A DNA stretch of 64,000 nucleotides, taken from positions 186,001 through 250,000 of the forward strand of contig LN483071.1 of NCBI GenBank assembly GCA_900016675.1, in the 5' to 3' direction. Shown in pieces: positions 1,447 through 54,400 of this stretch. The notes under the pieces were generated by a model, which was given only the letters and a program-made list of their open reading frames with translations, had not been told where the DNA came from and made no database searches. This DNA comes from Arthrobacter saudimassiliensis (GTDB lineage: Bacteria > Actinomycetota > Actinomycetes > Actinomycetales > Micrococcaceae). How positions within the stretch are numbered: position 1 is the stretch's first letter; the number at the start of each line of letters is the position of its first letter. The position numbers were made by a program, and so were the translations under genes.

Positions 1447-3516
1447 CTATTCCTGCCCTGGCACTTCAGCCTGCCCGCCTCTATCTGCGCCTGCGCTCCC
1501 CAGCGACTCGTCGAGACGCTCCGCGAGGATGGGAACCATGCTCTTCACGTAGGTACTCGTGATGTGGTTGTGGTCAATGTAAACCAGTACGTTGCCAATG
1601 ACAGGCGGGCAGTAGCCCTCAAAGCAGAAGTACGGTGAAAAGTCGATGTGGGTTATCCCCGGGCCGCTGATAATCGTCTCAGCAGGATTGACCGCGCCCA
1701 AGGTTCGATCTTCTGCCACCCCACAGGCCTCGGGTTCTGAGTGAACCGCCAGGCAGTCAGGAGCATTCACAGGTAGCCTAGGCGTGTCCCGGATAGCCGC
1801 AACGCGGATGCCAGCGTCTAGGAGACGGCTTATGGACGCTGCCCATGACGCGTCTACATACTCATCGCCGTCGAGCACAGTGCGGCTACTGGTGGTCACG
1901 ACTAGATCGGGCCGGGTCGATAGCAAGTGACCGAGAGTACGGCTAGCGTACTCCCGACACTCTGACCCCACGGTCTCCTCCAAGCTTAGGGGACAGCCGG
2001 CTTTCAAGAGAACCGAAAGCGTCCAGTCCCGCTCCTCGGCGATCTCTTCTAACGCTGTTACCCATGCTTCCGCATGGGAGCTGCCGACCACGATAATTCT
2101 CGGGGCTCCAGGTGCACCTGTGTGCAGTTCGCAGCTTACTTCCTGCTTCTCGGCGTCCCGGCAGTCCGAGGGGAACTGCGCCCATTCTCCGTCCACCTGA
2201 TCCGCCAGCGGCAGGATGGCGGCGTCGGGATCGGACCGGTCCTCATATCCCGGCAGCAGGACGGCGGCACCGGGGTTGTTGCGTTCGGCGTCCGCCGCGA
2301 GACGTTCAGCCTGCAGCCGCAGCCCCTCCTGCCACAGGCCCGCCGGCCCGGCGACCAACGCGCAGCAGGCGGCGATGACCAGGGCGGAGCGCCGCCAGCT
2401 CGACTCCAGCCACTGGTTCGACCGCAGCGGGTTTTCGATGAGCTTCGTGGTCAGCCAGGCCAGGACCAGCGAGAGCGTGATGATCCCGGCCCCGCCGACC
2501 AACCCCACCTCGGAGCGCCCGCGCCAGATCAGGTAGATGACGAGGATGGGCCAGTGCCACAGGTAAAGGGCGTATGAAATGTCGCCGAGCCGGATCAGCG
2601 GCCGCCAGGTCAGCAGTCGGTCGGCTCCGAACCGGCTGCCGGTCTGCCCGGCGGCGATGATCAGGGCAGCGGCCGTCAGCGGCCAGAGCGCCACGAAGCC
2701 GGGGAATGCGCCCTGCACATCGATCAGGAAGCCGCATGAGAGCATTGCCGCCAGGCCCAGCCAGCCTGCCGCGACCCGCACGCCCCGCGGCAGCCGAAGA
2801 TACGGCAGGGCCAGGGCGAGCAGGGTGCCGAAGGCGAACTCCCACAGCCTGGTGCGCGTGTCGAAGTACGCGTAGGACTGGTTGGAGTAGGTCTCTGCTA
2901 CCGAGTAGGAGAGGGATACCAGAAACACGGAGCCGAAGAGCAGCAGAACCACCCGGCGGAAGGGTAGACGGCCGTAGCGGGCCAGAAGTGCGGCCGCCGC
3001 GAAGAGCAACGGCCAGAGGATGAAGACTTGCCCTTGGACGGACAGCGACCAGAAATGCTGCAGCGGACTGGCTACGCTGTTGTCCGAGGCGTAGTAGTCG
3101 ACACTGAGTTCGGCCAGCGCCCAGTTCTGGTAGTAGAGCAGGGAGGACCAGGTCTGGTCGAGGATCCCGTCCCACCGGGTCCGCGGCACTACCAGCGCGG
3201 TTGCGGCGAGGGTGCCCAGAAGGACCACGACGACGGCGGGCAGGAGCCGCTTGAAGCGGTGCAGCCAGTGCCGCCCGAGTTCCAGGGGCCGGCCTGCCTC
3301 CACCTTGCGCATGAAGGAGAGGCTGAGCAGGAAGGCGGAGATCAGCAGGAAGATGTCGACCCCGCCCGACACCCGATTGAACCAGATGTGGTAGGTCACG
3401 ACCATCAGCACCGCGAGGGCGCGCAGGCCCTGGACTTCGGGGCGGAAGCGGGTGCTCGGGGCGACTCCTGCCGCGGATTCGGCCTGCGGCAGAGCCTGCG
3501 TATGTTGCTGTGACAC
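1447..3516 (-). CDS. Acyltransferase-3 / SGNH two-domain O-acyltransferase (OatA/OafB type)
   Basis: About 689 residues. The N-terminal half is a multi-spanning acyltransferase-3 domain opening with RPEVQGLRALAVLMV, the usual family start. The C-terminal part, outside the membrane, is an SGNH esterase-like domain: GSSHAEAW near residue 480 carries the nucleophile Ser, and DHNH near 648 supplies Asp and His. Such proteins move acetyl or acyl groups across the membrane onto peptidoglycan or surface glycans. The frame stays open 70 codons further upstream, but that stretch is Arg/Gly-rich and non-conserved; I chose GTG at 3516, behind an AAAGG box. It lies upstream of glf on the same strand, suggesting envelope glycan modification. 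The acceptor is unknown. Confidence 0.9.
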   Translation of the reverse strand: MSQQHTQALPQAESAAGVAPSTRFRPEVQGLRALAVLMVVTYHIWFNRVSGGVDIFLLISAFLLSLSFMRKVEAGRPLELGRHWLHRFKRLLPAVVVVLLGTLAATALVVPRTRWDGILDQTWSSLLYYQNWALAELSVDYYASDNSVASPLQHFWSLSVQGQVFILWPLLFAAAALLARYGRLPFRRVVLLLFGSVFLVSLSYSVAETYSNQSYAYFDTRTRLWEFAFGTLLALALPYLRLPRGVRVAAGWLGLAAMLSCGFLIDVQGAFPGFVALWPLTAAALIIAAGQTGSRFGADRLLTWRPLIRLGDISYALYLWHWPILVIYLIWRGRSEVGLVGGAGIITLSLVLAWLTTKLIENPLRSNQWLESSWRRSALVIAACCALVAGPAGLWQEGLRLQAERLAADAERNNPGAAVLLPGYEDRSDPDAAILPLADQVDGEWAQFPSDCRDAEKQEVSCELHTGAPGAPRIIVVGSSHAEAWVTALEEIAEERDWTLSVLLKAGCPLSLEETVGSECREYASRTLGHLLSTRPDLVVTTSSRTVLDGDEYVDASWAASISRLLDAGIRVAAIRDTPRLPVNAPDCLAVHSEPEACGVAEDRTLGAVNPAETIISGPGITHIDFSPYFCFEGYCPPVIGNVLVYIDHNHITSTYVKSMVPILAERLDESLGSAGADRGGQAEVPGQE

Positions 3517-48366: not shown

Positions 48367-48459
48367 CGGGGGCACAGGGCCCGCAGCGGCGCAACGGCTC
48401 CGCTGCCGCTGCACCCGGATCGGCCGGACGTGGAACATACGGAACCAGGGGTTGGATAC

Positions 48460-50443
48460 ATGCGGTTGAGGACCACGCGGCTGGCAGCCGTGCTGACGTT
48501 GAGCGCGGCGGCGGTGTGGCCCGCAGCCGCCGCCTTCGCCGAGCCTCCGGTCACCATTCCGCCCGGCGAGTACATCGTCGATGACAGCGGCGTGCTCGGC
48601 GGCGACGCCTCCCGGGTAACGGATGCCATCAGCGAGGTCCAGTCCGACAGCGGCTACACGCTCTACGTCGTCTACGTCGATTCCTTCACCTCCCCCTCCG
48701 ACGCCGAGGCGTGGGCCAGGGACGTCGTCACCGCCAAGAACATGGGTCCCCGGGAGGCCCTGGTCGCGGTCGCCACGGAGCAGCGCAACCTCCAGGTCGC
48801 CGTCCGCGACGACAGCCGCATCGACGATGCCCGCCAGGAGGCGATCTACAACGCCGCCGTCGAGCCCCTCAGGGGCAACAGCGACCCCTCATCGGCCGAC
48901 TGGGCCGAATCCGCCGTGAACGCCGCCGAAGCCCTGGGCTCGGGCCGGAGCGCCGGCAGCGGCAACAACTCAACCGGAGGATCTTCCATGGTGCCGCTGC
49001 TCGTGCTGTTCACCGCCGTCGTCCTGGGCGGAGTCGCCGCCTTCATGTTCATCCGCCGGGGCCGGGGCGGGCAGCCGCAGGTCGCCCGCGGCCCGCAGGC
49101 CCGCGGCCAGGTCCAGGCGCCGGATCCCCTGGACAGCGTCAGCATCCCGGACCTGCGCAAGCGCGCCGGCAGCCTGCTGGTCGCCGCCGACGACGCGATC
49201 AAGTCCAGTGAGCAGGAGCTCGCCTTCGCCGAGGTCCAGTACGGCACCGACGCGGTGAAGACCTTCCAGGCCGACCTCGACGCCGCCCGCAACCACATGG
49301 CCGAGAGCTTCAAGCTGCAGCAGCAGCTTGATGACCACATCCCCGACACGGAGCAGCAGCAGCGCACCTGGCTCAAGGACATCATCCGCCGGTGCGAGAA
49401 GGTGGGCGAATCCCTGCAGGCGCACAAGGCCGAATTCGATTCCCTGCGCGAGCTGGAGCGCACCGCCCCGCAGGCCCTGGCCGCTGCCCAGGCATCAGCC
49501 CAGGAGGCACGCCTGCGCCTGGACCGGGCCTCCGCCAAGCTCACCGAGCTGCGCACCCGGTACTCGGACTCCGCGCTGGCCCAGATCAGCGACAACATCG
49601 AACAGGCCACGCAGCGGCTGGAATTCGTCGCCGACGCCTCAGCCGAGGCGCAGGAAAAGCTCGGTGCCTCCGACACCTCCGCCGCCGTCGTCGCCGTCCG
49701 CGCCGCGGAGGAAAGCGTGCACCAGGCGAACCTGCTGCTGGATGCCATCGAGCGCACCGGCCGCGACCTGGATGCTGCCCGCAACGAACTGCGCACCGCG
49801 ATCGCGGATGCGCGGCAGGATCTCGCCCAGGCCCGGGCGATCCGTGACAGCGGCGCCAACCCGGCCCTGGCCGGCCCTGTGGCCGGCATGGAGGCTGCCC
49901 TGCAGACCGTCGAGGAGGACTCGGCGGACGGCCGCATCGATCCGGTCAATCTGCTGCGCCGGGTGGAGCAGGCCAACGGCCAGCTCGACGCCGCGCTGGC
50001 CGGCATCCGGGACCGCCAGGACCAGGAACGGCGGGCGCGGGAGGCCCTCTCCCACGCGCTGATGTCCGCGCAGGCACAGATTTCGGGCACCGCCGACTAC
50101 ATCCGCGCCCGGCGCGGCGGTGTCGGCAGCGAGGCCCGCACCCGGCTGGCCGAGGCCGAAAGGCACCTGCAGCAGGCGGTCGCCCTGCAGTCCTCCGACC
50201 CGGTCTCCGCACTCTCCTACGCCCAGCAGGCCGACGTGATGGCCGCCCAGGCCGCCGAAATGGCCCGCCAGGACGTCGACGGTTTCGGCGGCTACGGCGG
50301 CGGGGGCTTCGGCGGCGGGTTCGGCGGACGCGGCGGAGGCAGCGGCCTCGGCGGCGCCATCCTCGGCGGCATCCTCATCGACTCCATCCTGCGCCGACGG
50401 CGGCGGCGGCGGGGACTTCGGCGGCTTCGGCGGCAACTTCTAG
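48460..50443 (+). CDS. TPM-domain membrane protein with frame-changed C-terminus
   Basis: A signal peptide (cleavage after AFA near residue 28) precedes a TPM domain (IPPGEYIVDDSGVLGG ... GYTLYVVYVDSF), one membrane helix (about 180-200), a long coiled coil (about 230-590) and a Gly-rich end. After ILIDSIL the open frame turns into seven Arg. The +1 frame instead reads GGGGGDFGGFGGNF then TAG at 50441-50443, the expected Gly/Phe tail. So a one-base insertion (or two-base loss, or error) near 50390-50414 removed the normal stop. Without it the frame continues into pspA and ends at 51279. ATG 48460 follows AGGGG; an in-frame GTG at 48430 is an alternative. Confidence 0.8.
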
Positions 50444-50538
50444 CCGGCCCGCCGCAGATTTGCCGCCCGCCGGGCGCGCAGCGGTTGCACGTTCCACAGT
50501 TTTCGACCCACAACGAGGCACAGCGAAAGGCAGAAACG

Positions 50539-51279
50539 ATGGTTAAGCAGTCTATTTTCGGGCGGATTACCCAGTTGGCGAAGGCGAACATCAACGCCCT
50601 CCTCGACTCCGCGGAGGATCCGCAGAAGATGCTGGACCAGATGGTCCGGGACTACAGCAACAACATTGCCGAGGCCGAGAGCGCGGTCGCCCAGACCATC
50701 GGCAACCTGCGCATGCTGCAGGATGACCACAACGAGGACCTGCAGAACGCCCGCAACTGGGGCAACAAGGCCCTCGCCGCCTCCCGGAAGGCCGACGAGT
50801 ACCGTGCCGCCGGCAACACGGCCGACGCCGAGAAGTTCGACAACCTGGCCAAGGTCGCCATCCAGCGCCAGATCGCCGCCGAGAACGAAGCCCGCGGCGC
50901 CGAGCCCACGATCGCTTCGCAGGAGGAGATTGTCGAGCGCCTCAAGACCGGCCTGGACCAGATGAAGGGCAAGCTGGGCGAGCTGACCAGCAAGCGCAAC
51001 GAGCTGATTGCCCGCTCCCGCAACGCCGCGGCGCAAAACCAGATGCACGACGCCATGAAGAGCATCAACATGATGGATCCGACCTCCGAGGTCGGCCGCT
51101 TCGAGGAGAAGATCCGTCGCGAAGAGGCCCGTGTCCGCGGCGCCAACGAGCTGGCGGCCTCCAGCCTGGACGCCCAGTTCGAGTCCCTGGAGGACCTGGG
51201 CGAGCAGAGCGAGGTCGAAGCCCGGCTGGCCGCCCTGAAGTCCGGCAGCTCCAACCAGAACGCCATCGGCCAGGGCTGA
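50539..51279 (+). CDS. pspA: PspA/IM30-family membrane-stress protein
   Basis: 246 residues, almost entirely coiled coil. KQSIFGRITQLAKANIN is the amphipathic N-terminal helix that binds membranes; DPQKMLDQMVRDYSNNIAEA is the start of the helical hairpin. ESCRT-III-like PspA/Vipp1 proteins form rings or rods that stabilise damaged membranes. GAAAGG stands eight bases before the ATG. The gene is in the same frame as the TPM gene and no stop lies between them, so read-through could give one 940-residue protein. Two hairpin terminators follow. Confidence 0.93.
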   Translation: MVKQSIFGRITQLAKANINALLDSAEDPQKMLDQMVRDYSNNIAEAESAVAQTIGNLRMLQDDHNEDLQNARNWGNKALAASRKADEYRAAGNTADAEKFDNLAKVAIQRQIAAENEARGAEPTIASQEEIVERLKTGLDQMKGKLGELTSKRNELIARSRNAAAQNQMHDAMKSINMMDPTSEVGRFEEKIRREEARVRGANELAASSLDAQFESLEDLGEQSEVEARLAALKSGSSNQNAIGQG

Positions 51280-51289
51280 CGCCCTGCGC

Positions 51290-51320
51290 CTGCGGCAGCA
51301 CTGCTGAAGTGCTGCCGCAG
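51290..51320 (+). terminator. First of two tandem hairpins after pspA
   Basis: A 13-bp perfect stem (CTGCGGCAGCACT with its complement) around GCTGA. Confidence 0.7.
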
Positions 51321-51326
51321 GCAGCG

Positions 51327-51365
51327 AAAGGCCCCGTCCGGCTGATGCCGGACGGGGCCTTTTCT
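51327..51365 (+). terminator. Rho-independent terminator after pspA
   Basis: A 16-bp stem beginning AAAGGCCCCGTCCGGC with a TGAT loop, ending in CCTTTTCT. This is the strongest terminator in the window and also serves the opposite direction, downstream of the tRNA gene. Confidence 0.9.
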
Positions 51366-51366
51366 C

Positions 51367-51444
<78 letters not shown>

Positions 51445-51492
51445 GCGCTTGAATTACCTTAGCCGCCGCGGGGTGGAGCCGCAAATCGGGTC

Positions 51493-54400
51493 CTAGCCCT
51501 CGTCCGAACCGCCGCCGGTGTCGGAACCGCTGTCGGTGCCTCCGTCGCCGGACTCCGGGGCGGTGGCGCCGTTGGCGCCGTCGATCCGGTCCTGCGCCTC
51601 GGTGGCCCGGCGGATGGCGTCCTGCAGCTTGGTCTGGGCTTCGCCGTAGGCGGCGAAATCCCCCTCGGACAGGGCCGCCTGGCCCTCCTGCAGTGCCGCC
51701 CCGGCGTCGGACAGGGCCCGGGACAGCTCCTCCTGGTCGGTGCCGGTCCCGCCGCCGGGCGTGGTGCCCGCTTCGGTGCCGGCCTCGCCGGCGTTCTCGG
51801 AATCGCCGGTCACGGCTCCGGAGTCGCCGCCGAAGACCTGGTTCAAGGCCTCGTCCAGGGTCGGTGCGAAGCCGACCCGCTCGCCGAAGTTCACCAGCAC
51901 GCGCTGCAGCGTCGGGTAGGAGGCGTCGCCGGAGGACTGGACGTAGACCGGCTGCACGTACAGCATGCCGCCGCCCACGGGGAGGCTGAGCAGGTTGCCG
52001 TTGATGACCTCGGAGGCGCCCTGGCGGAGCAGGTTCAACGCGTTCGAGACCGTCGGATCCGAGTTGAACCGGTTCTGTGCCTGGCCCGGGCCCGGCACCG
52101 CGGTGTCGGTCGGCAGCGAGAGCAGCCGCAGCGCACCGTAGTTCTCGGCCTTCTCACCGTCGGCGCCGGTACCGGCGTCGCCGTCCGCGGACAGGAAGCC
52201 GTACAGCACGTTGCGGGCTTCGCTGTTCTCGGCGACGAACGGAATGAAGGTCGAGGTGAGCGAGAAGGTGGTCTCCTCCTGGCCCGGCATCTGCAGGGAC
52301 AGGTAGTACGGGGGCTGCTTCTCGTTGGCGCTCGGCTGGGTCGGATCCAGCGGCACCGACCAGGCATCGTCGTTGCGGTAGAACGAGTCGGCGTCGGTCA
52401 CGTGGTAGCGGCCGAGCAGCTCGCGCTGGACCTTGAACTGGTCCTCCGGGTACCGCACGTGGTCGATCAGGTCCGCGGACATTTCGCTGTACGGCTTCAG
52501 GCTGGACGGGAAGACCTTCTGCCAGGCCTTCAGCAGCGGGTCGGTGTCGTCCCAGGCGTACAGGGTAACGGTGCCGTCGTACGCGTCGACGGTGGCCTTG
52601 ACTGCGTTGCGGATGTAGTTGACCTGTTCCGGCGGCAGGGCCATCTGGCCCGGGGTCAGCGAGTCGGTGGTGGCCGACTGCAGTTCCTGCTTCGTGGAGT
52701 AGGGGAAGTACTCGCTGGTGGTGTAGGCGTCGACCATCCACACCACCCGCTCGTCCACGACGGCCGGGTAGGCGTTGGAATCGACGGTCAGGTACGGAGC
52801 CACCTTTTCCACGCGTTCGCGCGGGTCGCGGTCGTACAGGATCTGCGATTCCTCGTTGATGCTCTCGGCCAGCAGCAGTTCCGTGGACTGGAACTTGATG
52901 GCGTAGGCAAGCCGGTTGAACAGGTTGCCCACGCTGGGCCCGCCGTCGCCGGTGTAGGTGTAGAGCGTCTCCTCCTCGGAGTTGCCGGTCTGCGGCCGGT
53001 CGATCTCCACCGGATCGGTGCCCTCGGGGGCGCCGACGACCGAGTAGTCCGGGGACTGCTCGCCGAAGTAGATGCGCGGCTCGTAGTTGCCCAGCACGCC
53101 GCTGGAGGGGATGCCGGACTCCATGAAGCTCGGCTTGCCGTCGGGCTGCACGGTGGAGCCGCGGGCGGCAACCACGCCGTAGCCGTGGGTGTAGTTCACG
53201 TGCTCGTTGACCCAGCCGGAGGGCACGCCGCCCATGTTCAGTTCACGCACCGCGATGACGGTGTCCTGCACATCGCCGTCGACGTCGTAGCGGTCCACGC
53301 TCAGGGTGTCGGAGAACTGGTAGTACTGGCGGAACTGCTGCAGCTGGCGGAAGGTGTCGGAGACGACGTTCGGGTCCAGCAGGCGCACGTTCTCGGTGGT
53401 GCCGACGTCGTCGGCCAGCGCGCCGCTGGCCGCCTCGGTGGTGGCGTTGTACGGGATGACCTCGGTGTCGTCCAGCCCGTAGGCCACCCGGGTGAGGTCG
53501 ATGTTGCGCTGGATGTACTGCCGTTCCAGCGCCAGCTCCGACGGACGGACCTGGTACTGCTGGATCAGCCAGGGGTAGACGCCGCCGGCCACGATGGCCG
53601 TGATGATCAGCATGGCGGTGCCGATGATGGGCAGGCGCCAGCGGCCGATGAACGCGGACAGGATGAACAGCACGGCCACGATCAGGGCGGCGATCGCGAG
53701 GATGGTGCGGGTGGGAATCACCGCTTCGACGTCGGTGTACATCGCGCCGGTCCAGTTGCCGGAGGTGTCCTGCAGCGTCGCGTAGCGGTCCAGCCAGTAG
53801 TTGGCGGCCTGCAGCACCAGGAATGCCGCCGCGATCACGGCGATGTGGATGCGGGCGGGGCGGCTGACGAAGATGCCCTTTTCCTCCAGGCGGATGCCGC
53901 CGTAGAGGTAGTGGGTCAGCAGGCCGGCGATGCCGCTGATCACGACCACGCTGAGCAGGAAGCCGACGAGGAAGCCCAGGAACGGCAGCGTGTTCAGGTA
54001 GAAGCTGTAGTCCATGTTGAACTGCGGGTCGGTCTGGCCGAACTCCACCCGGTGGATGAACAGCAGCACCTGCTGCCACATGTTCATGGCCGCGGCGCCG
54101 GCGAAGCCGCCGACCACCACGGGAATGCCGATCATCAGGATCCGGCGGATCGGCTCAAGCTGCGCCTGGTAGCGGCTCAGGCTTTCCTGCAGCGAGCTGT
54201 CCGGGGCATAGACCGGCCGGGAGCGGTAGGCGACCCGGATGCTCGTGTACACCGCGGCCGCCATGATCAGGAACGCGCCCAGGAACAGGGCGATCCGGGT
54301 CAGGTTTTCCGTGACGAAGACTTCCAGGAAGCCTATCTGGTTGTACCAAAGGACGTCGGTGTAGATCTGGGTGAAGTAGACGAAGCCAACAACCAGCACT

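Follow-up and report, generated by a model that had tools for sequence, protein, structure and literature searches.

A frame break in the glycine-coding repeat of a TPM-domain gene next to pspA in Arthrobacter saudimassiliensis

Results

A gene for a TPM-domain membrane protein and the pspA gene that follows it are two ordinary neighbouring genes in the window (the whole stretch of 64,000 nucleotides of Arthrobacter saudimassiliensis DNA analyzed here), and the reading frame is broken locally, in a repeat. We infer a technical cause for the break rather than a real deletion: with a probability slightly better than even, the repeat was collapsed or miscalled during sequencing or assembly. An assembly slip or a recent mutation explains the merged open reading frame better than a new fusion protein does. 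The window lies within contig C2 of an assembly of 3.55 Mb in 3 contigs (99% complete).

Layout of the locus

The TPM gene body (48460..50388, plus strand) was assigned by a match to Pfam PF04536 (residues 39-145, E 7.1e-9). It codes for a signal peptide, the TPM domain, a transmembrane segment, a long coiled coil, a Gly-rich stretch and a GGAILGGILIDSI motif; the signal peptide, transmembrane segment and coiled coil were read by eye from the sequence, with no prediction tool behind them. A shortened Gly/Phe tail of 55 nt (50389..50443, plus strand), out of frame with the gene body, comes next and contains a pure (CGG)5 tract (50398..50412, plus strand; from a tract scan of 264 kb). An intergenic spacer of 95 nt (50444..50538, plus strand) separates the tail from pspA (50539..51279, plus strand; PspA/IM30 family, Pfam PF04012, E 1.4e-38), which is intact and has its own start and ribosome-binding site. 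The PF04536 protein is thus encoded upstream of, and in the same direction as, the PF04012 protein.

A terminator-like hairpin of 17 pairs (51326..51363, plus strand) was found 3' of pspA by pattern scan only, a scan that returned 2 such sites in the region against 1.2 expected from shuffled sequences; it is the probable end of a TPM-pspA transcript. A scan of 50200-51500 for sigma-70-like promoters found none. Directly past the hairpin, on the minus strand, lies a tRNA-Met gene (CAT; 51368-51444), the only tRNA found in the window.

The frame break and the shortened tail

As the original prediction stated, the frame is open from the TPM gene through the spacer and into pspA in phase. The open reading frame (48430..51279, plus strand) has 949 open codons and spans the TPM gene, the spacer and pspA; from the likely start (ATG at 48460) it would give 939 residues through to the end of pspA. 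The predicted polypeptide of about 940 residues, joining TPM, coiled coil and PspA, could in theory be made, but the spacer lacks a coding-like composition and pspA keeps its start signals (see below).

In the present TPM frame, ILIDSIL is followed by seven Arg codons (CGC CGA CGG x5), and the adjoining frame encodes Gly and Phe and ends at a TAG (50441-50443) that is unused in the present frame; both features had been described correctly. The 27 same-genus relatives with a readable tail share the first of these Arg residues (SILR). Counted from the codon that follows DSI through the last base of the stop, the tail is 55 nt long in the window, against 105-141 nt in 27 same-genus relatives, and its length is 3n+1, whereas the 27 readable same-genus tails are 3n. 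A single loss or collapse of length in the GGC repeat explains the shortness of the tail together with its loss of register. Of the causes that had been suggested, a sequencing or assembly slip is the best supported, though the shortness of the tail fits a loss or collapse within the repeat better than a simple slip in the CGG run. Pure GC trinucleotide tracts of at least 15 nt occur only twice in 264 kb of the assembly, and one of the two is in the TPM tail.

The start of pspA (ATG at 50539) is in phase with the TPM frame, and all frames of the spacer are free of stops. Spacer sequences shuffled with their dinucleotide composition preserved were open in a given frame in about 89% of cases, and pspA lies in phase by chance in 1 case in 3; for these reasons the open path from the TPM gene into pspA is unremarkable, and the break in the tail alone is unusual. 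The strand fold at the break (-55.8 kcal/mol, z -1.2 against shuffles) is ordinary for its composition.

Coding signature of the tail and spacer

In the TPM body the fraction of codons with G or C in the third position (GC3) is 0.91; in pspA it is 0.92. The tail (50392-50443) fits the Gly frame, with a GC3 of 18/18, and not the present frame (10/17, P 0.0004); its value is partly forced by the GGC repeat itself. In the spacer, GC3 in the fused frame is 24/32 (P 0.006 against 0.91); the stretch is short and the test modest, and the linker does not look coding as it would in an established fusion. Taken together, these values suggest a tail retained as Gly codons, either to this day or until a short time ago, and a spacer that did not evolve as coding sequence. 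Just before pspA the relatives share the box GAAAGGCAGA, which is intact in the window, and PspA should therefore still be made alone.

Comparison with the genus and family

A TPM homologue was found in 28/28 other same-genus genomes, at 60-79% identity per matched piece, a range that leaves aside one weak second match (42%, in G018). The identity of pspA to its same-genus relatives is 87-90%. The order TPM gene, then pspA holds in 27/27 other same-genus genomes with both genes on the fetched stretch; in the 28th (G023, L012) the contig ends in the tail, before pspA. In the comparison with close relatives that had been proposed, all 27 readable same-genus tails continue in frame after SILR, are Gly-rich and then reach a stop; the window, whose tail is out of frame, lacks an in-frame Gly-rich tail with a stop before pspA. 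These 27 tails have 34-46 residues after DSI, and the distance from the TPM stop to pspA is 69-114 nt.

Upstream of pspA, its frame meets a stop within 4-25 codons in 25/27 other same-genus loci; in six of these 25 (L013, L014, L015, L018, L019 and L037) the stop is, by the spacer lengths, the TPM gene's own. In L020 and L023 the pspA frame is open upstream for 114 and 153 codons, respectively, and a shifted frame could lead into pspA there. In two genomes the TPM gene is itself broken into two frames before the tail is reached: L037/L038 (G022; near query residue 470) and L105 (Pseudarthrobacter sp. Fe7; near query residue 289). These are errors or pseudogenes.

At family level, a TPM match was present in 388/395 genomes among the matches listed. 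Eight members with long open frames (G344, G358, G195, G333, G232, G360, G363 and G371), chosen by eye among the matches listed, were considered as natural fusions and rejected: seven have a tail and a stop before pspA, and the tail of G344 is interrupted by a run of N. No conspecific strain was found; 23 stretches were matched in a contig scan, 0 of them encoding a relative, in collections that contain one genome per species and may omit records very close to the window.

Assembly failures at the tail

The best 80 of 565 relative-encoding stretches, taken with an alignment of five PspA proteins as query, were examined as named loci; they overlap with the same-genus set, and the two counts are not additive. 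A tail and a stop before pspA were present in 72/80. Where TPM body and tail are both readable, the tail is kept in frame (72/72). Each of the other eight is interrupted by a contig end or an N-gap that lies within the tail or borders it. In five the contig stops inside the tail (L079, L099, L100, L119 and L128) and in one (L122) at the INSIL motif, where the tail begins; in these six contig-cut loci the remaining part reads Gly-rich to a stop, with a phase relative to the missing gene body that is uncheckable. L088 (A. agilis UMCV2), the sole apparent overrun into pspA, crosses a run of N (3126-3386) in the tail. In L149 a run of N (3157-3256) lies directly before the tail, and the tail itself reads to a stop. 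The 7/80 named loci that gave no TPM match are the six contig-cut loci and L149. L149 has no TPM match upstream of its N-gap, and the scaffold may be misjoined.

Seven loci are cut by a contig end within 3500 nt upstream of pspA, six of them at most 260 nt from pspA and the seventh (L132) 1891 nt from it. Five runs of N occur in 588 kb of named loci, in three loci; one falls within the tail and another abuts it. Repeated assembly failure marks the TPM tail in this group (8/80 named loci). One of the contigs ending in the tail (L100, WNZI01000032.1) is filed as Vibrio cholerae 35D and carries an Arthrobacter-like pspA (80% identity) with a TPM tail; contamination or mislabelling is probable.

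Soundness of the assembly elsewhere

In a small survey of 63 conserved genes of G024, 44 had a homologue in the window and 0 were split; in the controls G007 and G018, 0/62 and 0/56 were split. In a survey of 264 kb against G024, 1/181 G024 ORFs and 3/165 ORFs of the window's genome were flagged. The ORF flagged as A|114506 overlaps a gene with 89% identity to G024; opposite A|173346, on the other strand, is a 557-residue ORF with a G024 match; B|231569 and A|241892 fall on one stretch, adjoining a 98%-identical minus-strand ORF. Three of the four flags (or their shared stretch) were judged to be shadow ORFs or shadow extensions. Beside the 98%-identical minus-strand ORF, at L067 17340-17930 (C2 about 427340-427930), one 198-residue G024 ORF was matched in three frames (56-86% identity); Rfam gave no match in this stretch, which holds a shadow ORF or a short unrecognised gene.

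No other clear frameshift was found in the 264 kb (181 and 165 genes compared with G024) by this survey, a whole-gene comparison that misses short shifts at gene ends and left the TPM gene itself unflagged as split. In a check of C-terminal ends, 159/181 ORFs agreed to within 15 codons; the overrun exceeded 30 codons in 12 ORFs and 100 codons in 5 of these. The five are the TPM gene (259 codons), three ORFs of 87-104 residues and a protein of 1445 residues that was matched in pieces only; the other seven overruns are of 32-90 codons. As the assembly looks sound elsewhere, any error would have to be peculiar to the TPM tail repeat.

Discussion

In the assembly, the very GC-rich, Gly-coding repeat at the 3' end of the TPM gene stands at about half its normal length. 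The missing length is not a multiple of three, so that the usual TPM stop is passed over, and the frame then by chance crosses the stop-free spacer into pspA in phase. If the break is technical, the TPM protein of the organism itself would be normal and carry its Gly-rich tail, and PspA would be made separately, from the start of pspA.

The strongest competitor, and one raised from the outset, is a real and recent deletion or slippage in this strain's Gly-coding repeat, by which the TPM tail was lost and ribosomes run on into pspA, yielding a 939-residue read-through product beside the PspA made from its own start. We give this a probability a little short of even. It agrees with the finding that 264 kb of the assembly show no further clear frameshift, and with the variation of tail length among relatives (34-46 residues after DSI), which makes the tract a mutable one; the split TPM genes of G022 and L105 mean that loss may be tolerated, unless these are errors too. 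Against it, the break is absent from all readable tails (27/27 same-genus, 72/72 named loci), and the tail is a frequent place of assembly failure. True slippage in a repeat of this kind would be indistinguishable from an artefact. In a study of frameshifted genes (GeneTack, PMC3711429), singleton frame breaks validated by BLASTp are expected to be sequencing errors more than genuine indels, and breaks are enriched at the 3' ends of genes; a singleton break near the 3' end is there held likelier to be an indel mutation than a break elsewhere in the gene. This last point, by which 3'-end breaks are relatively more often mutational, led us to lower an artefact from fairly probable to just above even, and to raise a real indel from about one chance in three to just below even. 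An artefact is still favoured because assemblies often fail at the tail, the tract is a repeat and the break is absent from every readable relative; it is somewhat more likely than a real mutation, which is nearly as likely.

The other readings fare far worse. A functional TPM-PspA fusion specific to the lineage, in which an Arg-rich linker would tie PspA to the coiled coil of the membrane-anchored TPM protein, is very improbable. The topology would permit it, as coiled coil and PspA should both be cytoplasmic, and the genomic partners described for PspA include TPM proteins that have a low-complexity segment or a long coiled coil (PMC11237479); but the linker is not coding-like, pspA keeps its own start and ribosome-binding site, and the tail retains its Gly-frame signature. 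In related genomes a stop precedes pspA in 72/80 named loci, and the overrun in L088 crosses an N-gap. Fainter still is the chance that the GGC repeat acts as a contingency tract, its length changes switching some cells from TPM and PspA as separate proteins to a membrane-tethered fusion of the two, or back, and so tuning the envelope stress response. Least probable of all, to the point of being negligible, is the programmed +1 shift in the tail that had also been suggested, which would yield two products, a Gly-tailed TPM protein and a TPM-PspA fusion. Its only point is that both frames are open in the window. The relatives need no shift, their tails being in the frame of the gene body (27/27 same-genus tails, 72/80 named loci), and hence hold no conserved shift site; the pspA frame is blocked 4-25 codons upstream in 25/27 other same-genus loci, and the RNA fold is no stronger than in shuffles (z -1.2). 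A programmed shift was dropped on the lack of a conserved shift site among homologues.

The merged frame, if left uncorrected, would be annotated as a new PspA domain architecture, and the failures at the TPM tail (8/80 named loci) are a warning for the mining of PspA neighbourhoods for fusions. If the break is real, it offers a natural test of PspA function when tethered to a TPM partner.

The locus matches the pair of pspA and a TPM (TPM_phosphatase, PF04536) coiled-coil gene, whose product is a YdjH-like partner, described in mSystems 2024 (PMC11237479): a TPM gene with a long coiled coil lies directly upstream of pspA. The pair itself is thus already known, and it is kept in the genus and its kin; in that account coiled-coil TPM proteins are partners of PspA, and a chaperone-like role in the assembly of membrane complexes is proposed. 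The window differs from it in that the Gly-rich tail is short and out of frame and the stop is passed over. As in the PspA domain fusions of the same source, which make up <2% of PspA homologues, PspA_IM30 would sit in a longer polypeptide; the examples given there are tandem PspA, NlpC/P60 and PspAA, and TPM is not among them. The break resembles the singleton frameshifted genes of GeneTack (PMC3711429), in that it occurs in one genome among those read, in a gene otherwise conserved and with no conserved shift site; it differs from them in lying at the 3' end and, by chance, in phase with the next gene.
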